Source of the DNA: Halolamina litorea
GTDB taxonomy: Archaea; Halobacteriota; Halobacteria; Halobacteriales; Haloferacaceae
DNA: 64,000 bases
NCBI RefSeq assembly: GCF_026616205.1
Contig: NZ_JANHGR010000001.1
Span: 1,178,001-1,242,000, forward strand
Direction: 5' to 3'
In this document: positions 4,099 to 17,948 of the stretch, piece by piece
Layout: each line of letters starts with the position of its first letter
Numbering within the stretch: the first letter of the stretch is position 1
The notes under the pieces: model-generated
What the model was told of the DNA's origin: nothing
Databases searched by the model: none
Seen by the model: only the letters and a program-made list of their open reading frames with translations
Program-made: the position numbers and the translations under genes

Positions 4099-5901
4099 AT
4101 GGCCAAAGAGCAACCTGACAACCGACTGCCAAGGCGTAACTTTCTGAAAAAGACCGGTGTGGCTGGAGCGACGGTAACGCTCGCCTCGTTCGCCGGCTGT
4201 GCCGGGGACGGTGACAGCGGCGGCGAGGGCACGGACAGCGAGACGGTCGCCGGCGGTGACGGCGACACCGTCGAGATGGACGGGTTCCAGGTCCCCTCCG
4301 AGAACGTCGTCGCACAGGGCGATCTGGACGACGCACAGGCGATCCCCGAACTCACGCTCATCGTCAACCCACCAGACGCACAGCCCGACGACCACGAGAC
4401 GTCGATGTTCGTGAGCGAGGAGATCGCCAAGCTCGGCATCGACACGACCGTCGAGACGATGACGTGGCCCTCCCAGTCCTCGACCGTCTGGGACGGCACC
4501 GACTGGGACATGACGTTCTGGCAGATGGTCGGACGCCCGTCCCGATTGGACCCCGACGAGTTCTCGGTCCAGATGGGCCACTCGAGCTTCCAGGAGGGGT
4601 ACAACTACTACTTCTGGGAGGACGACGAGTACGACGAGAAGGTGATGGCCCAGCGTGAGGAACTGGACCAGGCGGCTCGCGAGGAGCTAGTGAAGGAGAC
4701 CCAACGGATCTTCCACGAGCGCGGGCCGAGCACGTTCCTGATGTACCCCGACAAGACGATCCCGTGGAACAGCGAACGCTGGGAGGGCGTCGTCGAACTG
4801 AACGGGATGGGCGCGGTGAACATGCTGACGTTCTCGAACATCGAGCCCACGGGCGACCGGACGGACCTCAACATCGCCTACGACCAGGAACTGCAGGCGC
4901 TCAACCCCTTCGACCAGTCCGGCGAGATCGACATGATCCAGCACCGGATGATCTGGGACCGCCTGGCGTGGCCCGACGAGTCCGCACTGCCCGCACCTCG
5001 GCTGGCCGAGGAGTTCAACTGGAAGGACGACACCACCCTGGAGGTACCGATCAAACAGGGCCACACGTTCCACGACGGTGAGGACCTGACCGCCGAGGAC
5101 GTCAAGTACAGCTACGACATCCACCGCAACTACTCGACGTACTTCTCGGGGCCGGTCGAACCGGTCAACGAGATCACGGTCGTCGACGACTACACCGTCG
5201 AGTTCAGCTTCGACTACCACTACGCGCCGTTCCCGATGGCGGCGATGGGCCGCATCGCCATCATCCCCAAGCACAAGTGGACCGACATCATCGAGAACCG
5301 GATGGACGTCGACAACCCGATGCTGTACCAGGAGGACACCCCGCTCGGGTCGGGGCCGATGGAGTTCGTCCACTGGAAGCCGTCCGAGGAGGTCCGTCTG
5401 GAGCGCTTCGACGACCACTTCGACCCCGTCGCCTACGAGGCCCGGAACTCCCGCATCATCCCCAGCGTCCAGACGATGCTGACCCAACTCGAGAACGGGA
5501 CCCTCGACATGCTGGCGAACTACCGTGGCGACAAGGACGTGCTGCAGGACCGCGTCGAGCAGAACGACAGCCTCAGCATGGCGTCGACGACGACGGTCGG
5601 GTTCAAACAGATCTCCTACAACAACGACCGCCCGCCGTTCCACATCGACGGGTTCCGCCGCGCGATGAACCACCGCTTCGACAAGGAAACGATCGTGAAC
5701 GACATCTACAGCGGCTGGGGGAGCATCGCGCCGAACTCGCTGGTATCCTCGGCGCTGGACTCGTGGCACAACGACGAACTCGAACGCTACGAGTTCAGTC
5801 TGCAGGCCGCCGCGAACGAACTCATCGAGGCTGGCTTCGTCTGGGACGAGAGCGACGGTATGCTCTACATGCCCGCCGACAAGACCGAAGTCGGCAACTA
5901 A
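4099..5901 (+). CDS. ABC importer substrate-binding lipoprotein, SBP family 5, apparently circularly permuted
   Basis: This is the extracellular binding protein of a Dpp/Opp-type importer, 600 residues. The N-terminus has a Tat motif (RRNFLKK, residues 12-18) and a lipobox ending at C34, so it is exported folded and lipid-anchored. The order of segments is unusual. Residues 84-250 (ELTLIVN, then EEIAKLGI, DPDEF) match the C-terminal part of ordinary family-5 proteins. Residues 254-600 match the usual N-terminal and middle part (LNPFD, RLAEEF, F.DGE.LTAEDV..SYD, RRAMNHRFDKETIV), ending at ELIEAGF, where the C-terminal part would normally begin. It is followed after 21 bases by the permease gene. 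The substrate is probably a peptide or peptide-like compound. Confidence 0.92.
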   Translation: MAKEQPDNRLPRRNFLKKTGVAGATVTLASFAGCAGDGDSGGEGTDSETVAGGDGDTVEMDGFQVPSENVVAQGDLDDAQAIPELTLIVNPPDAQPDDHETSMFVSEEIAKLGIDTTVETMTWPSQSSTVWDGTDWDMTFWQMVGRPSRLDPDEFSVQMGHSSFQEGYNYYFWEDDEYDEKVMAQREELDQAAREELVKETQRIFHERGPSTFLMYPDKTIPWNSERWEGVVELNGMGAVNMLTFSNIEPTGDRTDLNIAYDQELQALNPFDQSGEIDMIQHRMIWDRLAWPDESALPAPRLAEEFNWKDDTTLEVPIKQGHTFHDGEDLTAEDVKYSYDIHRNYSTYFSGPVEPVNEITVVDDYTVEFSFDYHYAPFPMAAMGRIAIIPKHKWTDIIENRMDVDNPMLYQEDTPLGSGPMEFVHWKPSEEVRLERFDDHFDPVAYEARNSRIIPSVQTMLTQLENGTLDMLANYRGDKDVLQDRVEQNDSLSMASTTTVGFKQISYNNDRPPFHIDGFRRAMNHRFDKETIVNDIYSGWGSIAPNSLVSSALDSWHNDELERYEFSLQAAANELIEAGFVWDESDGMLYMPADKTEVGN

Positions 5902-5922: not shown

Positions 5923-6900
5923 ATGGGATTGAAAGAATTCGTAACGAGGCGTATCATTCAGATCGTCGTCCTCTATTTCGCGATAGCGACGATGCTGTTT
6001 TTCCTGTTCCGTGCCGCGCCGGGCGACCCGCTCGCGGCGTACATCGGGACGGGGTTCACACAGGAGCAAGCGGCCCAGATCCGCGCGACGTTCGGCCTCG
6101 ACCAGCCGGTCCACGTCCAGTACTGGAAGTACATGACGAACCTCGTCACGTTCAACTTCGGGCTCTCCTACATCACCGGCGACCCGGTTTGGCGGATCAT
6201 CCGGAGCCGCATCTGGAACACGCTCGTCCTGATGGGGACCTCGGTGATCCTCGCGTACCTGATCGGCGTCCCCTTCGGGGCCTACCTCGCGTGGAACCGC
6301 GGGACGAAACGCGAGCGGATCGGCGTCGTCTTCGCGCTGGTCTCCCGAAGCGCGCCGGTGTTCTGGACCGGACTGCTCGGCATCTGGCTGTTCTCGTTCA
6401 AACTCGGCTGGCTGCCCGCGGGGTCGATGTCACAACCCGGCGTGACCTACTCGAGCAAACTGGCACAGTTCACCAGCCCGGACTTCCTGCGACACCTGAT
6501 CCTCCCGGCGTTGATTCAGGCGTTCTACTTCTACAGCTTGCCCGCGTTGCTGATGCGAAACAGCATGCTCGAAGTGATGAACGAGGACTTCGTCGACTTC
6601 GCGGAGCTGAAAGGGATCAGTGACTTCGCGGTGATGCTGAAACACGCCGCACGGAACGCGCTGTTGCCCATCGTGACGGCGTTCGCCGTCGCCGCGGGCT
6701 TCGCCGTCGGCGGGAGCGTCGTGCTCGAAACCGTGTTCGCGTGGCCCGGACTGGGCAGGGAGATGGTCCGAGCGGTCATCGCGAACGACTACCCGGTGGC
6801 ACAGGCGACGTTCCTGATCCTCGCCGGACTGGTACTGGTCGCCAACTTCCTCGCCGATCTGGCCTACGGCTACCTCGACCCACGGATCACGTATGACTGA
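5923..6900 (+). CDS. dppB: Dipeptide/oligopeptide ABC transporter permease, DppB type
   Basis: This 325-residue integral membrane permease has an N-terminal transmembrane helix, the family motif FRAAPGDPL, about six helices, and a cytoplasmic coupling (EAA) loop around LKHAARNALLPI that contacts the ATPases. It is the second gene of a five-gene operon. Its stop overlaps the start of the DppC gene by 8 bases, which suggests translational coupling. Confidence 0.95.
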   Translation: MGLKEFVTRRIIQIVVLYFAIATMLFFLFRAAPGDPLAAYIGTGFTQEQAAQIRATFGLDQPVHVQYWKYMTNLVTFNFGLSYITGDPVWRIIRSRIWNTLVLMGTSVILAYLIGVPFGAYLAWNRGTKRERIGVVFALVSRSAPVFWTGLLGIWLFSFKLGWLPAGSMSQPGVTYSSKLAQFTSPDFLRHLILPALIQAFYFYSLPALLMRNSMLEVMNEDFVDFAELKGISDFAVMLKHAARNALLPIVTAFAVAAGFAVGGSVVLETVFAWPGLGREMVRAVIANDYPVAQATFLILAGLVLVANFLADLAYGYLDPRITYD

Positions 6901-7840
6901 ACGAACAAGCGACTCGAACACGGCCGCCATCGACTCGGAGTCGAACGTCGACAGCCTCGACTCGGAGTTCTCCACGTGGTCGGAACGCCAAGCCGACGCG
7001 TGGCGTCGACGTATCGCCTTCCTCAAGCAGGAGCCGATGGGGCTCGCGGGGATCCTCATCATGCTCGCGATCATCGCGGTCGCCATCCTCGCGCCAGTGA
7101 TCGCCCCCTACGAACCGACCGAAACCGACTACGGGAACTCCCTGGCCCCGCCGAGCGCCGAGCACCCGCTTGGCACGGACAGCGCGGGCCGGGACATCTT
7201 CAGCCAACTGGTGTTCGGCGCCCGGCCGGCCCTGCAGATCGGGCTACTCAGCGCCATCAGTGTGGCCTTCGTCGGGATGAACGTCGGCTTGATAGCCGGC
7301 TACTACGGGGGGTACGTCGACGACGTGTTGATGCGACTGGTGGACTTCGCGTACGGCATCCCGTTCACGCCGTTCATCATCGTGCTCGTCGCGCTCTGGG
7401 AGCCGTCGAAGTGGACCATCGTCGGCGCCATCGCGTTGCTGCTCTGGCGACAGACGGCACGTGTCGTCCGTTCACACGTGCTGAACCTCAAGGAGAAGCC
7501 GTTCGTGAAGAGCGCACGCACCGTCGGCGCCAGCGACAGGCGGATCATCTACAGACACATCGCGCCGAACGTCCTCCCGCTGGTGTTCCTCTACGGCAGT
7601 TTCGCCATCGCGTGGGCGATCCTGACGGAGGCGTCGATCAGCTACCTCGGCTTCGGCGACCCGACTGCGGTGACTTGGGGCCAGATGCTCCAGTCGGCCC
7701 AGCAGTCACAGGCGCTCGCTCGTGACGCGTGGTGGTGGTTCACCATGCCCGGCATGGCGATCATGCTGACGGTCATCTCGGCGTTCCTGATCGGCCGTGG
7801 CTACGAAGAACAACTCAACCCGGAGCTCCAAGAGAAATGA
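6893..7840 (+). CDS. dppC: Dipeptide/oligopeptide ABC transporter permease, DppC type
   Basis: This 315-residue permease pairs with DppB. A hydrophilic acidic N-terminal tail of about 45 residues precedes the first helix (GILIMLAIIAVAILAPVIAP). The segment HPLGTDSAGRDIFSQL is a hallmark of DppC/OppC proteins, and the EAA loop is at IYRHIAPNVLPLV. The start overlaps dppB and the stop overlaps the next start in an ATGA arrangement, so expression is tightly coupled. Confidence 0.95.
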   Translation: MTERTSDSNTAAIDSESNVDSLDSEFSTWSERQADAWRRRIAFLKQEPMGLAGILIMLAIIAVAILAPVIAPYEPTETDYGNSLAPPSAEHPLGTDSAGRDIFSQLVFGARPALQIGLLSAISVAFVGMNVGLIAGYYGGYVDDVLMRLVDFAYGIPFTPFIIVLVALWEPSKWTIVGAIALLLWRQTARVVRSHVLNLKEKPFVKSARTVGASDRRIIYRHIAPNVLPLVFLYGSFAIAWAILTEASISYLGFGDPTAVTWGQMLQSAQQSQALARDAWWWFTMPGMAIMLTVISAFLIGRGYEEQLNPELQEK

Positions 7841-8847
7841 CGCTACTCGAAGTAAACGACTTACACGTGACGTACAGCGGCGACCCGGACGTGGAGGCTG
7901 TCAGGGGCGTCTCGTTCACGCTCGAGGAGGGCGAGACCCTCGGCATCGTCGGCGAATCCGGCTGCGGGAAGACGACGCTCGCCCAGGCCATCATGGGGGC
8001 CCTCCCCGACAACGGCGAGATCACGGGCGGCGAAATCATCTTCGACGGCGAGGACATCACGCACCTCTCGAACCGCGAACGCCGCGAGATCCGCTGGGAG
8101 CGGATGTCGATGATCAGCCAGAGCGCGATGAACAGTCTCGACCCGGTCTACCGGGTCAAAGACCAGATCAAGGAGGCAATCCAGGAACACCGGGACATGT
8201 CCGACTCGGCGAGCTACGAGCGGGCCCGGGAGCTGATGGAGCTCGTGGGTCTCGACCCAGACCGCGTCGAGGACTACCCACACCAGCTCTCCGGGGGGAT
8301 GCGCCAGCGGGTCATCATCGCGATGAGCCTCGCGCTCGACCCGGACCTGATCATCGCCGACGAGCCGACGACGGCGCTGGACGTGATCATCCAGGAGCAG
8401 ATCCTCTACCGCATCAAGGAGCTCCAACGGGAGCTCGGCAACTCGATGGTGATGGTCACCCACGACATCAGCGTCGTCGCCGAGACCTGTGACAGTATGG
8501 TGGTGATGTACGGCGGCGAACTGATGGAGTACGGCGGTGTCGACGAGATCTTCAACGAGGCCCAGCACCCCTACACGCTCGGCCTGCAGAACGCGTTCCC
8601 CAGCGTCGAAGGGGAGAAGCGCGACCTCACCAGCATTCCCGGCTCGCCGCCGGACCTCTCCGAGCCGCCGGGAGGCTGTCCGTTCGCCTCCAGGTGTCCG
8701 TTCTCCGCTCCCGAATGTGAGCAGCCGCTTCCGACCGTCGAGGCGGGGGAGAACCACCAGGTCCGCTGCCACGAACCGATCCCGTTCGAACAGATCCGCA
8801 ACCGATCCACCGAAGACGAGACATGGCTATCACCGAATCAACACTGA
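7837..8847 (+). CDS. dppD: Dipeptide/oligopeptide ABC transporter ATP-binding protein, DppD type
   Basis: This 336-residue ATPase has a Walker A (GESGCGKTT, residues 39-47), a signature LSGGMRQRV and a Walker B with [12 protein letters not shown]. The C-terminal oligopeptide-transporter extension carries a cysteine pattern ([14 protein letters not shown]). The ATG at 7837 overlaps the dppC stop as ATGA; the open frame extends further upstream but only in the shadow of dppC. It forms a heterodimer with the DppF-type protein, whose gene starts 25 bases before this one ends. Confidence 0.95.
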
Positions 8848-9854
8848 ACTGGGACTACGACGGTCCGATCATGGAGGTAGCGGGGCTAGAGAAGCATTTC
8901 CCACAGAGCACGGGGATCGTCCACCAGCTCATCGGTGGGGAGACGAAACACGTCAAAGCCGTCGACGGGGTGGACATGGCAATCGAGAGCGGCGAGACCA
9001 TGGGGCTCGTCGGCGAGTCCGGCTGTGGGAAGTCGACACTCGGCGAGGTCCTGATCGGCCTCCAAGAGCCGACGGGCGGCTCGATCAAGTTCCTCGGGAC
9101 GGAACTCGACTCGATGTCGGGCGCCCAGCGCAAGGAGTTCCGACGGAACGTCCAGATGATCTTCCAGGACCCCTACGAGTCGCTGAACCCCCGCTTCTCC
9201 GTCGAGCAGTGGATCCGCGAACCGCTCGAGGTCCACGACATGGACAACCAGGACGAGCGGATCTACCAGGCGCTCGAGCGCGCGGAGCTGACGCCACCGG
9301 AGAACTACGTGAGTGAACACCCCCACGAACTCTCCGGCGGGGAGCGCCAGCGCGTCTCCATCGCCCGCGCGCTGGTCCTCGAACCCAAGTTCATCGTGGC
9401 CGACGAACCGGTCTCGATGCTGGACGTGTCCGTGCGCGCGAGCATCCTGAACCTGCTTCGTGACCTCGTCGACGAACTCGACATGGGGGCGCTGTACATC
9501 TCCCACGACCTCTCGCTCATCCGGCAGATGTGTGACCGGACGAGCGTGATGTACCTCGGGAACGTCGTCGAGCGCGGGCCGACCGAACGCCTGATCAAGG
9601 ACCCCAAGCATCCCTACGCGAGAGCGTTGCTCGACGCGGTCCCCGTACCGAACCCGGAACACCAGATCTCCAAGCCGCAGTTGCAGGGGGAGCCGCCGGA
9701 CCCGGTCGAACTCCCGGAGGGCTGTAACTTCCGCCCGCGGTGCCCGTTCGACACGGAGGAGTGTCTCGAGGTACCGGGACTCGACGCCTACGAGTCGGCC
9801 GAGGGGGATCACGCGGCCGCCTGTTGGCGGGTAGAGGCCATCGACGAGACGTGA
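8823..9854 (+). CDS. dppF: Dipeptide/oligopeptide ABC transporter ATP-binding protein, DppF type
   Basis: This 343-residue ATPase has Walker A GESGCGKST, signature LSGGERQRV, Walker B VADEPVSMLD, and the C-terminal extension with CNFRPRCPFDTEEC. A short insertion near the N-terminus (QSTGIVHQLIGGETKHVKAV) is typical of DppF/OppF proteins. It is the last gene of the importer operon, and its start lies inside dppD. The 135 bases downstream contain no gene but do contain the promoter of the racemase. Confidence 0.95.
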   Translation: MAITESTLNWDYDGPIMEVAGLEKHFPQSTGIVHQLIGGETKHVKAVDGVDMAIESGETMGLVGESGCGKSTLGEVLIGLQEPTGGSIKFLGTELDSMSGAQRKEFRRNVQMIFQDPYESLNPRFSVEQWIREPLEVHDMDNQDERIYQALERAELTPPENYVSEHPHELSGGERQRVSIARALVLEPKFIVADEPVSMLDVSVRASILNLLRDLVDELDMGALYISHDLSLIRQMCDRTSVMYLGNVVERGPTERLIKDPKHPYARALLDAVPVPNPEHQISKPQLQGEPPDPVELPEGCNFRPRCPFDTEECLEVPGLDAYESAEGDHAAACWRVEAIDET

Positions 9855-9989: not shown

Positions 9990-10715
9990 GTGACAGACAT
10001 TGCCTACCTCGTCCCGGGACGGGGACTGGAGCCGACCGAACTGGACCGCCGTGAGGGTATCGCCAACGAACTCACGCCCGCACACGTCGACGTGAGCGTC
10101 GTCGACGCCGACGACGGGCCGCTGTCCATCGAGAGCGAGGTCGAACACGAGTGGTGTGTCCGGAGTCTGCTCGGCCTTCTGCGGGACCACGAGGACGACC
10201 ACGACGCGTTCGTCATCGGCTGTTTCGGTGATCCGGGGCTCGCCGCGGCCCGCGAGTTCGTCGACAAGCCAGTCGTGGGTCCCGCATCGTCGACGTTCCA
10301 CACGGCCGCCCAGCTATCCGATCAGTTCTCCTGTTTGACGATCCGTTCCACGCCGGCCTCGAAGCGCCGGCAGATATTCGCGGACCACCTCGGCTCGCAG
10401 TTAGCCAGCGTCCGCGTCGTCGAACAGGGCGTGCTCGACGTCGACCACGAGTCGGACGCGGTCGTCGAGAAGATGGTCACCGAGGCCGAGCGGGCCGTGA
10501 CGGAGGACGCCGCCGAGTCGGTCATTCCAGGCTGTATGAGCCTGGCGTTCATGCAGGTCCACGACCGGGTCGCCGACGGGCTCGGCGTGCCGTTCCTCGA
10601 CCCCGTTCGCATCAGCCTCGGGACCGCCGCGATGTGGGCCGACTACGGGTTGGACCACAGCCGGGTCACCTACCCCGCGTTCTCGGCGGAGCGGGAAGCG
10701 AGCTTGTTCGAGTGA
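9990..10715 (+). CDS. Asp/Glu/hydantoin racemase family protein, copy 1
   Basis: This 241-residue, two-domain cofactor-independent racemase starts with GTG. The two catalytic cysteines expected for the family are C78 in GCFGDPG and C182 in PGCMS. The first motif is close to that of hydantoin racemases. Such enzymes invert the alpha carbon of amino acids or 5-substituted hydantoins; related members are maleate isomerases and decarboxylases, so the reaction is not fixed by sequence. The gene lies between the importer and an M28-like hydrolase and has a paralogue at 17190-17948 with both cysteines conserved. Confidence 0.85.
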   Translation: MTDIAYLVPGRGLEPTELDRREGIANELTPAHVDVSVVDADDGPLSIESEVEHEWCVRSLLGLLRDHEDDHDAFVIGCFGDPGLAAAREFVDKPVVGPASSTFHTAAQLSDQFSCLTIRSTPASKRRQIFADHLGSQLASVRVVEQGVLDVDHESDAVVEKMVTEAERAVTEDAAESVIPGCMSLAFMQVHDRVADGLGVPFLDPVRISLGTAAMWADYGLDHSRVTYPAFSAEREASLFE

Positions 10716-10856: not shown

Positions 10857-12587
10857 ATGGATCAGCCACTGTACGAGGAGGGATCACCATCGGTAACCGG
10901 TGTTGACGCGGCGATCGTCGACGACGTGTCGGCCGACGAGCCGTGGGGCGTCGTGGAACGCTTCGCGGAACTGGAGCGCGTCTCGGGTACCGAGGACGAA
11001 GCGACGGCGATGGCGTACCTGCGTGACCGGCTGGACGCGTTCGGCGTCGATCACGAACTGTTCGAACCGGAACTCTACCTGAGCACGCCCGGGGGAGCGA
11101 GCATCGAGACCGACGACGGCTGGGCGTCCGACACCGCCAAGACGGTCTCGTTCTCGGCGGACCGCACCGTGGAGGGCGACCTCGTCTACGTCGAGAACGA
11201 CGACGAGATGGACTCCATCGAGGCGATGCTTTCGGTCTCGCTGGAGGGGCTCCCCGAGGACCTCTCCGGAACGGTAGTGATGAGCGAGTCGATCATCCCG
11301 ATCAGCGCCATCGGAGAGCTCTCCGACCGGGGCGCGGAGGCGTTCGTCGGCATCCACCCCCACGAGCGCGAGCCACACGAGGGGATCGTCACGCCGGTCT
11401 GGGGCGGCGCGCCGCCCTACGACGACCGAGAGCGGATCCCCGACCTCCCCGTCGCCAACGTCTCCGCGAGCGAAGGGCGTGAACTGCGCGAGAAAGCCGC
11501 GAACGGCGCCAGCGTCACCGTTACGACCGAGACGACGACGGGCTGGCAGGCAGCGCCGCTGTTGCTGGCGAAGATCCCCGGCGAGGCCGCGCCCGGGACC
11601 GACGAGTTCGTGCTGGCCCACGGCCACGTCGACTCCTGGCACGTCGGCGTCACCGACAACGCCACGGGCGACGCGACGCTGCTGGAACTGGCTCGGGTGC
11701 TGAACGACCACAGCGAGGCCCTCCGGCGGGACGTGTGGGTCGCGTGGTGGCCCGGGCACTCGACGGGGCGCTACGCCGGGTCGACGTGGTTCGCCGACGA
11801 GTTCGCCGCCGACCTCGCCGAACGCTGTGTCGCTCACGTCAACATCGATTCCCCGGGCGTCGCCGACGCCACCGTCTACGACGAGCGCGTGAAGTGGATG
11901 GCCGCGGTCCACGACGTGGCGGCCAACACCATCCACGACGTGAGCGGGAAGGGCACCACCAAGGAGCGCCCGGCCCGCGCGGGCGACTACTCGTTCAACA
12001 ACCTCGGGATCCCGGGCATGTCGCTCCAGTCGAGCATTCCCCAGTCGGTTCGAGACGAGCGGGGCTACCACCCCGTCGGCGGCTCGGCCGGCCACGCCGA
12101 CGCCTGGCACCTCACGACCGACACCATCGAGAAGGCCGACCCGGACGTGCTGGAACGCGACACCGAGGTCTACACGCTCGCCACGGCCCGATTGAGCCGC
12201 GCGGACTGCCCAGCCGATCCGGTCCGAACCATCGACCGCATCGCCGCCGTCGCCGAGGAGTACGACGGCGCCAGTGAGTTCGACCTCGGCCCGGTCGTGG
12301 ACGAACTCGACGCGCTGCGCGAGGCGACGGTCGCGTTCCTCGACGACGCCGACGGCTACCCGGCGGCGGCCGACCGGCTCGTGAAGTCGCTTACCCGGCT
12401 GAACTTCGTCACCGAGGGGGCGTTCGAACAGGACCCCGCCGAGAGCCGGGCGCCGTTACCGCGACTCGCGCCGGTCGAGCGGCTCCCCGAACTGGGCGGC
12501 GACGACGCGCGGTTCCTCGAACTGCAGCTACAGCGTGCGCGAAACGACGTCGTGGCGGAGCTCCGGCGGCTTCGACGGTCGTTGTAG
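10857..12587 (+). CDS. M28-like metallopeptidase with PA domain, copy 2
   Basis: This 576-residue protein is of the same subtype as copy 1: ADEPW cap, RVSGTEDE, PA-like region about 100-225, then the zinc core. Zinc-site residues are H257-x-D259, bridging D267, HVNIDSPG and WH..TDT.EKA. As in the other copies, the Glu-Glu motif is replaced by WPGHSTGRYAGS (H301, S302). There is no export signal. The oxidoreductase that follows starts 39 bases downstream behind its own TATA-like box. The protein is probably a hydrolase of a peptide or amide bond, but the altered active site makes this uncertain. Confidence 0.85.
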   Translation: MDQPLYEEGSPSVTGVDAAIVDDVSADEPWGVVERFAELERVSGTEDEATAMAYLRDRLDAFGVDHELFEPELYLSTPGGASIETDDGWASDTAKTVSFSADRTVEGDLVYVENDDEMDSIEAMLSVSLEGLPEDLSGTVVMSESIIPISAIGELSDRGAEAFVGIHPHEREPHEGIVTPVWGGAPPYDDRERIPDLPVANVSASEGRELREKAANGASVTVTTETTTGWQAAPLLLAKIPGEAAPGTDEFVLAHGHVDSWHVGVTDNATGDATLLELARVLNDHSEALRRDVWVAWWPGHSTGRYAGSTWFADEFAADLAERCVAHVNIDSPGVADATVYDERVKWMAAVHDVAANTIHDVSGKGTTKERPARAGDYSFNNLGIPGMSLQSSIPQSVRDERGYHPVGGSAGHADAWHLTTDTIEKADPDVLERDTEVYTLATARLSRADCPADPVRTIDRIAAVAEEYDGASEFDLGPVVDELDALREATVAFLDDADGYPAAADRLVKSLTRLNFVTEGAFEQDPAESRAPLPRLAPVERLPELGGDDARFLELQLQRARNDVVAELRRLRRSL

Positions 12588-13613: not shown

Positions 13614-15359
13614 TTAGGCCCGCCGGTCGAGAAACGCCTCGACGGTGTCGGCAGCTTCCTCGACGTTGTGCGCGAGCTTCGAGACGCCGCGGACGGCTTT
13701 CGTCCGGGCGAATCCGGCCCGCGGACCGGTTCGATCCGGGAGCGATTCGGCGACCCGGAGGTACGGCAGCAGTTCGTGGGGGAGCGCTGGGTCGTGTTCG
13801 TGCGCCGGCGACTCCATGTACAGCGCCGGGATGAGTAGGTTGCCGAGTCGGACCTGTACGTCCTCGACGGCCGTCGCGACGCCGTCGTCGTCGACGCCGT
13901 TGGCCACCGCGGCGAAGGACTCCAGCGCGGCGTCGAGGCGGTCGAGCCGGTCGTACACCGGCCCGAAGTCGACCTCGCCCCCGGCCGCGTCGTCGATTCC
14001 CTCGGCGAGCGCGCGGATCTCCGTCGCCGTCTCCCGGTAGTCGTGGGGGAGTACTGGCGAGTTCGAGAGCCGCGAGACGATGGCCGTGTACAGCCGGGCC
14101 TCCTCGGCCATCAGATCGAAGTCGATCTTGTCACGGGTGTCCTCGGGGGTGTGCCACCACCAGCCGCCGCCGACGGGGCCGGCGTCCTCGTGGTCGGCGC
14201 TGAACCGAGCGCCCGAGAGCAGCGAGGAGAGCCCGGCGCCCCAGAACGACTGGTCGGAGTTCCGGCCCGGCCGGCTTCCGCCGCCGAGCAGGCCGCCCTC
14301 GTCCCGCGCCGTCTCCAGCGGGAGCGGGCCGTCCGCCAGCACGTCGAGGTGTTCGTCCCCGACCTCGGCCATGTGCTGGGCCCAGAGGTGGTCAGCGCCG
14401 TCGAGGCCGTTCAGGTCGATGTGGATGTAGGCGACCCCGTTTTTGCGGAGGTCGAGCCAGTTCCGGTCTGCGTAGCGGGCGCTCCCGGCGTACCGGCCCA
14501 TCGAGTGGCCGGGCCAGAACCCGACGACGAGCCCACGTTTCGGCGGGTTCTCGGCGAACACGCGGGCCAGTTCCATCGACGTGGCGACGGCCGAGGCGTT
14601 GTCGGTGACACCCTCGTGCCAGGAGTCGATGTGGTTGCCGACGACGGTGTATCGGTCGCTCTCGGTGCCCTCGATGCGCGCGACCGGACACGGCAGTTCC
14701 TGCTGCTCGGTCCGGGCCTGCGTCTCGACGGCCACCTCCACGTCGTCGCCGGCGAGTCGCTCCGTCAGCCACTCGCCGTCGCTCTGGTGGATCTCCGCCA
14801 CCGGGAGGTCGGGGAGTTCGTCCACGTCGTCCACCGAGGGCGAACCCCAGATGGGGGAGGCGATCATCTCGTGCAGTTGGCCCTCGGTCGGCGACTGGAA
14901 CACGGCGGCCCGCGCGCCGGCCTGGTCGATCGCCCGCACGGCACCGGGGGTGGGGAGCCCTTCCGTGAAGACGACCTTCCCCGAAAGATCGGGCAGGTCA
15001 GTCGCGCTGTGGCCGACCGCGTCCACCGCGACGAGTTCGCCGCTGACCCCGCCCGGGGGCGTGCTCGCGCTGAACGCGGTGGTGATCGCGTCCTCGAACG
15101 CCGTGTGGACCGGGCTGGTGACCGTCACCGTCGCGGACACCGGGACGCTCGTGTACGCCTCGACCGTCTGCAGTTCGACGTCGACGCCTTCGGCCCCGAG
15201 TTCGTCGACGATGTACTCCGCCGCCTCCCACTGGTCGTCCGTTCCGGGATACCGTCGCAGGTCGGCCAACGCGTCGATGTGGGTCTCCAGCGCGCTCCGG
15301 TCGATCTCTCCGACGAGTCCGTCTTCCGTCGTTCTGTCGACTGTGTCAATCACACCCAC
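13614..15359 (-). CDS. M28-like metallopeptidase with PA domain, copy 3
   Basis: This 581-residue protein belongs to a second subtype, closer to the copy at 53698 than to copies 1 and 2 (RRYPGTDDQWEAAEYIV near residue 36). Zinc-site residues are H243-x-D245, bridging D253 and WWWHTPEDTRDKID, which matches the classical M28 C-terminal ligand motif. The catalytic Glu-Glu segment is replaced by WPGHSMGRYAGS (H285, S286). A TATA-like CGCTTATTGC about 25 bases upstream supports this start. It is convergent with the luciferase-like gene and follows the amidase on the same strand after 84 bases. Confidence 0.85.
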   Translation of the reverse strand: MGVIDTVDRTTEDGLVGEIDRSALETHIDALADLRRYPGTDDQWEAAEYIVDELGAEGVDVELQTVEAYTSVPVSATVTVTSPVHTAFEDAITTAFSASTPPGGVSGELVAVDAVGHSATDLPDLSGKVVFTEGLPTPGAVRAIDQAGARAAVFQSPTEGQLHEMIASPIWGSPSVDDVDELPDLPVAEIHQSDGEWLTERLAGDDVEVAVETQARTEQQELPCPVARIEGTESDRYTVVGNHIDSWHEGVTDNASAVATSMELARVFAENPPKRGLVVGFWPGHSMGRYAGSARYADRNWLDLRKNGVAYIHIDLNGLDGADHLWAQHMAEVGDEHLDVLADGPLPLETARDEGGLLGGGSRPGRNSDQSFWGAGLSSLLSGARFSADHEDAGPVGGGWWWHTPEDTRDKIDFDLMAEEARLYTAIVSRLSNSPVLPHDYRETATEIRALAEGIDDAAGGEVDFGPVYDRLDRLDAALESFAAVANGVDDDGVATAVEDVQVRLGNLLIPALYMESPAHEHDPALPHELLPYLRVAESLPDRTGPRAGFARTKAVRGVSKLAHNVEEAADTVEAFLDRRA

Positions 15360-15443: not shown

Positions 15444-16931
15444 CTACCGATCGACCGCCTCCCAGATCGCCGCCGCGCGGAGTGCGCTCGCATCGGCGCC
15501 ACGTCGCCCGATGAACTGCAGTCCGACCGGGAGTCCATCGTCCGAGCCACAGGGTACCGAGACGGCCGGGTGGCCGGTGAGGTTGAACGGGCCGGTGGTG
15601 CGGACCGCTTCGTCGAGCGTGCTGTCGGCCAGGTAGTTCTCCCCCTCCCAAGCAGGCGCGACCATCGGCGTCGTCGGCCCCGCGAGCACGTCCACGCCGT
15701 CGAGTGCGTCGTCGACGCCCGCGGTTACCAACTCCCGGGCACGCTGGGCCCGTGCGTAGTACTCTTCGCCTTCGGCCAGCAGGTGCTGCCCGTAGAGGAA
15801 CGCCTCCGCGGGGTAGTCGCCGAGTTCGTCGGTCCGTTCGGCGAACGCCGCTTCGACGGCCGCCGTGAACGCCGGGTCCGTCACCGATGGCTGCCAGTAG
15901 TCGTTCCCGTTCGCCTCGACGTATGCCGCGGCCTCCGTCATCGCGATGGCCCACCACGCGGGCACGGCGTACTCGAAGTCAGGGATCGATACCTCCCGGA
16001 CGGTCGCGCCGGCGGCAGCGAGGGCGTCGATGGCCGCTCGCACCGTCTCGTCGACGGCACGGGCGCCGCCGAACAGTTCTTCGGGGACGCCGACGGTGAG
16101 CGTCTCGGCCGCGCCGGCGTCGATGCCGGCGACCACATCGACGTACGCCTCGGGGCTCGACCCGACCGTGGCTGCGTCCTTCGGGTCCGGTCCCGCGATG
16201 GCCGCGAGCGTCCGAGCGACGTGCTCGACCGTGTCCGCGAGGATCCCGATCTCGTCGTTCACCTTCGAGAACTGGACGAACCCCGTCAGCGGAACGAGTC
16301 CACGGCTCGGCTTCAGGCCGACGACCCCACAGAACGACGCCGGGAACCGAACCGAGCCCCCGGTATCGCTCCCGAGGGCCACGTCGGCGAGGCCGTCCGC
16401 GACGGCGACGCCGCTGCCCGCCGAGGAGCCACCCGGCTGATGGTCGGGGTCGTTGGGGTTCCGAGCCAGGCGGAACCGCATCGTCGCGGCGTCGCCGCCG
16501 AGCGCGAACTCGTCCATGTTGGCCTTGCCGACGATCCGTCCGCCGGCGTCCAGTAGCCGATCGACCGTTGTCGCGTCCTCGGCCGGGACGTGGTCCGCGA
16601 ACAACGGCGACCCGCAGGTCATCGGGAGCCCCGCAACCGCGATGTTGTCCTTGACCGCGACGGTCAGCCCGGCCAGTAGCCCCTCGTCGGTTCGTTGGAT
16701 GTCACACCGGGAGAGGAACGCCGCGTTCGGGTCGTCGTCCCCGTCCGGGTCCCAGTACTCTCGGTCGGGCGCGGTCGGCATGTCGAGTCCGTCGAGACGG
16801 GCCACCAGTGTGTCCTGTGTCTCCATGGCGGCCGCCTGCTCCTCCGGATCGAACCGATCCGGGTCGAGGCGCGCTCGTTCGGCGTACTCGCCGATGTCGT
16901 CGGCCGTGAGGCTCGAGTCGTCCATGTGCAT
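15444..16931 (-). CDS. Amidase signature family hydrolase
   Basis: This 495-residue member of the GatA/amidase signature family hydrolyses carboxamides with a Ser-cisSer-Lys triad. K94 (TVAVKDN), S169 (GGSSAGSG) and S193 (GSDTGGSVR) have the same mutual spacing as the known triad. There is no GatC-like partner nearby, and the neighbours are M28-like and racemase genes, so a catabolic amidase is more likely than tRNA amidotransferase. An in-frame ATG six bases further in (MDDSS) is an alternative start. A TATA-like AACTATTTGA lies about 24 bases upstream. Confidence 0.9.
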   Translation of the reverse strand: MHMDDSSLTADDIGEYAERARLDPDRFDPEEQAAAMETQDTLVARLDGLDMPTAPDREYWDPDGDDDPNAAFLSRCDIQRTDEGLLAGLTVAVKDNIAVAGLPMTCGSPLFADHVPAEDATTVDRLLDAGGRIVGKANMDEFALGGDAATMRFRLARNPNDPDHQPGGSSAGSGVAVADGLADVALGSDTGGSVRFPASFCGVVGLKPSRGLVPLTGFVQFSKVNDEIGILADTVEHVARTLAAIAGPDPKDAATVGSSPEAYVDVVAGIDAGAAETLTVGVPEELFGGARAVDETVRAAIDALAAAGATVREVSIPDFEYAVPAWWAIAMTEAAAYVEANGNDYWQPSVTDPAFTAAVEAAFAERTDELGDYPAEAFLYGQHLLAEGEEYYARAQRARELVTAGVDDALDGVDVLAGPTTPMVAPAWEGENYLADSTLDEAVRTTGPFNLTGHPAVSVPCGSDDGLPVGLQFIGRRGADASALRAAAIWEAVDR

Positions 16932-17133: not shown

Positions 17134-17197
17134 GGCTGTCGGTCGCCGTGCCTCAGTCGTACAGAATCACGGCTGTCGGTCGCCGTGATTCAGTCGT
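17134..17197. repeat. Direct repeat copying the 3' end of racemase 2
   Basis: Two 27-base copies (17134-17160 and 17171-17197) are identical except at two positions. The right-hand copy includes the last codons and stop of the racemase gene, and a third, weaker match begins near 17079. This looks like a small tandem duplication at the gene's 3' end. Confidence 0.7.
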
Positions 17198-17948
17198 CGC
17201 CCGCCGCTGCGGGCGCCCCACCCAACAGATCGCCGAGCTTCTCGAACTTCGGCTCGGGGTAGGTCTTCGAACTCTGCGAGATGCCGTGACGAGCCCACGA
17301 CGCGGCCTGCTCCAGCGCGATGCTCGCGGGGTCGAGGAACGGTACGCCGACGCGCTCCTCGATCTCCTTATTTCGCTGGGCGAACGAGAGGCTCATACAG
17401 CCCGGGAACAGCGCCTCGGCGCCGTCCTCCTCGACGGCCGCCTTCCCTTCTCGGACCATGCGCTCGACGAGGTCGTCGTCGCCGTGGTCGATCTCCTCGA
17501 CGGGGGCGTCGACTGACCGGACGCTGACACAGCGCTCCGAGAGGTGGTGTTCGTGAGCCTGCTCGTGGCTCATCGGCATCGTCTCGTCGAGGATCGTGAG
17601 CCACGAGAACCGGTCGGAGATCATCGCCGCGGTGTGGATCGTTGCCTCGGCGGGACCGACGACCGGGATGGTCAGTAGCTCCCGCAGCGCGCGGCTGCCG
17701 GGGTCGCCGAAGCAGCCGATCACCAGCGCGTCGAACTCGTCTTCGATACGGTGGGCGGTCTTCATCGAGCCGACGACACACCAGTACTCCTCGACGGCGC
17801 TCTCGATGCTCGTCGGGCCGGGACCGTCGGCTTCCACCACGGTCACGTCCACGTGGCCGGGCGTGAGTTCGTTGGCGACACGCTCGCGGCGTTCTTTCTC
17901 CTTACTGGGGAGGCCAACGCCGGGAACGAGGTAGCACACGTCGACCAT
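17190..17948 (-). CDS. Asp/Glu/hydantoin racemase family protein, copy 2
   Basis: This 252-residue paralogue of 9990-10715 has both catalytic cysteines in matching contexts: C79 (GCFGDPG) and C184 (PGCMS). The start codon overlaps the stop of the upstream 80-residue frame (TGATG), so its translation is probably coupled to that frame. It belongs with the amidase and M28-like genes of this region. The exact reaction (hydantoin, amino acid or maleate-type chemistry) is not determined by sequence. Confidence 0.85.
   Translation of the reverse strand: MVDVCYLVPGVGLPSKEKERRERVANELTPGHVDVTVVEADGPGPTSIESAVEEYWCVVGSMKTAHRIEDEFDALVIGCFGDPGSRALRELLTIPVVGPAEATIHTAAMISDRFSWLTILDETMPMSHEQAHEHHLSERCVSVRSVDAPVEEIDHGDDDLVERMVREGKAAVEEDGAEALFPGCMSLSFAQRNKEIEERVGVPFLDPASIALEQAASWARHGISQSSKTYPEPKFEKLGDLLGGAPAAAGDD

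Follow-up and report, generated by a model that had tools for sequence, protein, structure and literature searches.

Natural circular permutation of a protein is usually a single old event, reached by a route that leaves no trace. Among the binding proteins of ABC importers, the closest precedent for the protein described here is TpMglB-2 (Tp0684) of Treponema pallidum, a naturally permuted glucose-binding lipoprotein assigned to 'Type Ic / Cluster Bc', which has spread horizontally and whose crystal structure retains the two-lobed fold and ligand binding (PMC4990184). Two further reports, on engineered permuted halves of ribose-binding protein and on the idea of 'domain dislocation', describe the topology of binding proteins as tolerating, or as probably having passed through, permutation; their systems are engineered pieces or deep-time scenarios, not the natural, recent and repeated permutation of a working gene (PMC9815098, PMC10601554). 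Among the open-access papers covered by our literature search, none described a cluster C binding protein that is permuted in nature, and none described repeated permutation within one binding-protein family.

Here we analyse a gene at positions 4099-5901 of a window of 64,000 nucleotides, the whole stretch of Halolamina litorea DNA under study. Its sequence identifies the encoded protein as a family-5 substrate-binding protein (cluster C, Opp/Dpp-type) whose chain is circularly permuted. It resembles TpMglB-2 in being permuted relative to its parent family, in being the substrate-binding lipoprotein of an ABC importer and in its horizontal spread. TpMglB-2, however, is a type I, cluster B protein (MglB, sugars) that carries part of the N-lobe at its C-terminus and was described as one subclass, whereas the present family belongs by sequence to cluster C (Opp/Dpp), carries its last third in front, occurs in archaea and bacteria and has several origins. 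No MglB-like type I sequence was found in the 4099-5901 protein, for which SBP_bac_5 and a Tat signal are the only matches. With DppA, AppA and OppA (PF00496, cluster C) it shares the sequence family of both segments and the type of operon, but those proteins run in the order N-middle-C and this one in the order C-N-middle.

The gene and its product

The open reading frame extends on the forward strand from ATG to TAA over 600 codons without interruption; translation probably begins at this ATG (4099), since the in-frame stretch upstream closes with a stop codon. The features of the gene are listed here, where norm-HMM denotes a profile, used to test segment order, that was made from seven proteins of this genome with the normal order.

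4099-5901, +: whole gene, encoding a circularly permuted family-5 substrate-binding lipoprotein, as judged from sequence (600 aa)
4099-4206, +: leader; twin-arginine motif at residues 12-15 (RRNF), Cys34 of the lipobox at codon 4198-4200
4207-4341, +: acidic linker, residues 37-81, probably disordered (from sequence)
4342-4848, +: residues 82-250, found at the C-terminal end of normal members of the family (Pfam profile; AppA 375-493)
4840-4911, +: junction of the old C-terminus and the old N-terminus (IEPTGDRTDLNIAYDQELQALNPF)
4858-5841, +: residues 254-581, equivalent to the N-terminal and middle parts of a normal member (Pfam profile; norm-HMM 67-380 at residues 256-580)
5842-5898, +: tail at the new C-terminus, behind helix ANELIEAGF (break point)

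The leader matches TAT_signal at E 0.014, under the cut-off, and TIGR01409 over the cut-off. The acidic linker is absent from the alphaproteobacterial relatives, in which a signal peptide is followed directly by the C-terminal-type segment. Against SBP_bac_5 (PF00496) the protein scores 177 bits, over the family cut-off of 32.4, and its family-5 content is complete, with N, middle and C segments all present (profile positions 3-288 and 287-364).

Swapped order of the segments

Within the window, SBP_bac_5 positions 287-364 lie at 4336-4587, ahead of positions 3-288 at 4993-5874; the two pieces are complementary and reversed, and the usual linear order of the profile was not found at this gene, which we class by homology as a permuted variant of the family and not as a standard member. 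Given alone, residues 84-250 fall on the end of the profile (291-364, E 9.5e-5); in the match of the whole protein, which has E 8e-52, residues 299-588 fall on the start of the profile (3-286). In a scan of the whole genome the profile was split only at 4099-5901, the 11 other family loci giving single-run matches. The alignment to AppA (1xoc) places query residues 282-591 on chain positions 49-355 and residues 100-221 on positions 375-493. In four structure alignments of the permuted-family profile both parts fall in normal chain order and, among the best 60 matches listed for this profile against solved structures, no chain ran across the junction.

Read with the norm-HMM, every one of the 57 relatives collected has its C-segment ahead of its N-segment, and permuted proteins fetched later show the same swapped order, with the break at norm-HMM positions 380/385. 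Eight normal-order bacterial controls gave single-run matches to this profile, and in the reverse test controls appeared in the usual order, apart from two in which the C-segment was weak or missed. Chance as the source of the swapped order is excluded. AlphaFold2 predictions for the full-length protein and then for its mature part, made from an alignment of only four close sequences, reached pLDDT 33 and 36 (pTM 0.26), too low for a usable model. Locus L011, which matches residues 58-249 only and was considered as a half permutation, is instead an ordinary normal-order protein.

Profile pieces, AppA alignment and norm-HMM thus all give the swapped order that a preliminary description had proposed from the letters of the window alone. 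Its two swapped segments, given there as residues 84-250 and 254-600, are retained with limits nearer 82-250 and 254-581; the protein does not end at ELIEAGF, as had been stated, since the stop codon lies 20 residues past that motif.

Distribution and transfer between domains

Full-length collinear homologues are found in Halolamina rubra and H. pelagica (91-92% identity) and in an uncultured haloarchaeon (61%). The H. pelagica copy, L013, has a frameshift close to its end in its assembly, near codon 541 of the homologue, its remaining residues lying in another frame. Of the 391 haloarchaeal genomes sampled, 126, from 46 of 86 genera, have a match at E <= 1e-35, and most of these matches span the junction. 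The closest relatives found outside the haloarchaea are permuted alphaproteobacterial homologues, with up to 36% identity; among the plasmid sequences sampled for bacterial relatives, the permuted order was found in Nitratireductor, Neorhizobium, Microvirga, Ketogulonicigenium, Roseomonas and Maritalea. In one relative, L071, the gene is split. Scans of viral contigs returned either nothing or three distant normal-order loci.

A tree was built from de-permuted sequences. In it, four alphaproteobacterial proteins join the window protein and its 61% relative (99/94), and Maritalea, a second alphaproteobacterial line, groups with a haloarchaeal protein (100/97). Because these are two separate haloarchaeal-alphaproteobacterial groupings, at least two transfers of the permuted gene between domains are likely. 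The permuted order is not special to haloarchaea, as it occurs also in Alphaproteobacteria and in another archaeal family and has several origins.

Several origins of the permuted order

Four sets of permuted proteins are scattered in the tree and form no joint grouping: type A (with C), which holds the window protein, and types B, D1 and D2. AU tests, whose p-values are nominal because the groups were defined with a first tree already in view, rejected a single clade whether it was to contain all permuted rows (dlnL 818, p 9e-53), A, C and B (dlnL 217, p 4e-7) or D1 and D2 (dlnL 137, p 3e-61); a clade of A and C was not rejected (p 0.36), and the monophyly of type B was borderline (p 0.055). 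The sequence identities given below for D2 and B are independent of these p-values. The minimum number of order changes on the tree is six, and we count at least four changes (A/C, B, D1 and D2).

Type B was found in two other haloarchaeal families. It shares 45% (N-middle) and 41% (C-segment) identity with a normal-order protein of the window's own genome and only 24-29% with the other permuted proteins, and in a sample of 292 genomes permuted type-B proteins and their normal-order kin are listed side by side. Normal-order proteins are nested within permuted type B in the tree (L094 and L107-L131 versus L003 and L132-L136). A natural reversal of circular permutation to the normal order is possible within type B.

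Types D1 and D2 belong to the other archaeal family. D1 carries a C-terminal PGF-CTERM anchor; L093:6730-8472 (minus strand) encodes a permuted binding protein whose new C-terminus bears such an anchor. D2, found in three genomes (L157-L159, one of them a single contig), consists of permuted orthologues of normal-order proteins, with 77-89% identity to them across both halves; in the permuted protein, residues 196-520 match normal residues 29-353 at 86% and residues 30-192 match 353-515 at 83%. There is a single clean cut at residue 353, the leader is retained in front, and few residues join the old ends. With these properties the recent D2 case fits an origin by duplication and trimming; the same origin, put forward in the preliminary description, is plausible for the 4099-5901 gene. 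The flanks of the D2 genes hold no duplication remnants, and a duplication intermediate was not seen. The D2 gene (at about 6.8-8.4, 7.1-8.7 and 7.6-9.2 kb in L157-L159) is divergent from the permease operon, whereas in its normal-order relative the binding-protein gene heads the operon, which argues that a rearrangement moved or inverted the D2 gene.

Position of the cut

The break of the 4099-5901 protein aligns to DppA precursor residues of about 369-384, just ahead of R383, in a helix-to-strand stretch of the second lobe. By the lobe and hinge limits of the DppA and OppA structures, we take this region to lie inside the second lobe, with the hinge strands elsewhere, and the earlier suggestion that the termini had moved to a hinge is therefore not supported. 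The type B cut lies at Pfam position 257, not 287, some 30 residues away and before, not after, the helix AxxLLxxAG, and all cuts flank this one helix of the second lobe. This loop region is probably a hot spot at which permutation recurs in archaea as well as bacteria, the cuts falling to both sides of a single helix; the cases include a shallow one, in which close orthologues occur in both orders, and possibly one type-B reversal.

Importer operon, neighbourhood and substrate

A complete Dpp/Opp-type importer operon (two permeases and two oligo_HPY ATPases, 5923-9854) lies behind the binding-protein gene, and complete importer operons are also present at annotated relatives. The importer genes and several of their neighbours are:

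5923-6900, +: DppB/OppB-type permease (PF00528, PF19300)
6893-7840, +: DppC/OppC-type permease (PF00528, PF12911)
7834-8847, +: ABC ATPase 1 (oligo_HPY)
8823-9854, +: ABC ATPase 2 (oligo_HPY)
9990-10715, +: Asp/Glu/hydantoin racemase, likely in a catabolic module
17190-17948, -: second Asp/Glu/hydantoin racemase
1021-2826, -: M28 peptidase with PA domain, likely in the same module
10857-12587, +: second M28 peptidase
13614-15359, -: third M28 peptidase
15444-16931, -: amidase

A zinc dehydrogenase is also among the importer neighbours. The alphaproteobacterial relatives have M28 peptidases near this importer, and most of those annotated also have hydantoinase A/B and M20 hydrolases there (L066, L068, L069 and L071). 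Beside one haloarchaeal relative lie genes of the creatininase family and of M20 hydrolases. A catabolic module containing M28 peptidases is apparently common to, or transferred between, haloarchaea and Alphaproteobacteria. The two racemases and the amidase point to the breakdown of amides or hydantoins, and our guess for the substrate is a short peptide or a hydantoin-like amide. In DppA, R383 and D436 are the two residues that grip the dipeptide (PMC12136057). These contacts are not kept in the window protein, where the aligned residues are about P92 and R146, so that a classic dipeptide ligand is doubtful.

A proposed permuted receptor and its likely origin

The observations on which we build are the swapped order, its conservation over many species, the importer operon, the several origins and the site of the cut. 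We give a probability of roughly 0.88 to the reading that the protein is a permuted member of family 5, exported by the Tat route and anchored by a lipid at Cys34, which would catch a small peptide- or amide-like nutrient and pass it to a DppBCDF-type importer, and which would derive from duplication in a family where permutation arose at least four times. The chain begins at the last third of a normal member and finishes just short of that point, with the old termini joined without a long linker. The termini of normal family-5 proteins are close together in the normal fold. Since all parts of the family are there, since the joined ends are these neighbouring termini and since a full importer stands behind the gene, we favour the view that the protein would be a functional lipoprotein receptor, different from a normal member in its order of connection alone; its ligand would be held between the two lobes and then handed to the importer encoded directly behind. 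The most likely route would be a tandem duplication in frame, or some comparable rearrangement, in which the leader was kept and both outer parts were trimmed. A tolerance of the second-lobe loop for new termini would explain why the same change occurred at least four times, and such a loop, with tandem duplication as raw material, would be enough to account for the permutation.

Alternative explanations

We considered whether the gene is an assembly artefact or a decaying pseudogene, as the frameshift in L013 and the split in L071 might suggest; the chance of this is vanishingly small and the idea is already refuted, because the window gene is intact on a 2.1-Mb contig and the order is repeated in many independent assemblies, some of them complete. 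That residues 84-250 are an unrelated or separately acquired domain ahead of a truncated binding protein has hardly more to recommend it. The isolated segment scores 22 bits against Pfam, under the family cut-off, but it is recognised as the normal C-terminal third with an E-value of about 1e-14 in the window protein and values as low as 1e-27 in relatives. Solved structures agree with this assignment, and in types B and D2 the segment is 41% and 80-89% identical, respectively, to that third in normal orthologues. This alternative, too, is already refuted.

A single ancient permutation, with the normal-order kin in the tree explained as reversions or tree errors, would account for breaks that all lie within about 30 residues of one another, and it could draw on the normal-order kin nested in type B and on the borderline monophyly of that type (p 0.055). 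We consider it very improbable, given that the AU tests speak strongly against one clade, that type B is cut elsewhere, that D2 sits within a shallow group of normal-order orthologues and that normal-order bacterial and other archaeal proteins surround all types; for D2 versus A, a single origin is already refuted. Somewhat less remote, yet still unlikely, is that permutation is an adaptation for membrane tethering in which the anchor is shifted to the second lobe, an idea put forward for TpMglB-2 (PMC4990184). A lipobox is present in 65 of 66 haloarchaeal type-A proteins (type-C pair included) and in all D2 proteins, and D1 has its C-terminal PGF-CTERM anchor at the same loop. Against this, a lipobox is lacking from all six permuted proteins of Alphaproteobacteria that were examined, and the D2 orthologues that keep the normal order are themselves lipoproteins, so that tethering is neither needed for the permuted form nor specific to it.

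Implications

Profile tools give partial or oddly split matches for permuted proteins such as these. The second-lobe loop offers a natural candidate site for the construction of biosensors. The soluble bacterial forms, which have the same order, challenge the membrane-tethering proposal for permuted binding proteins. A single family that has undergone permutation on at least four occasions, close to one and the same site, over a range from old and cross-domain to recent, provides natural before-and-after pairs of about 85% identity, and these open the route, the tolerance and the benefit of circular permutation to study.
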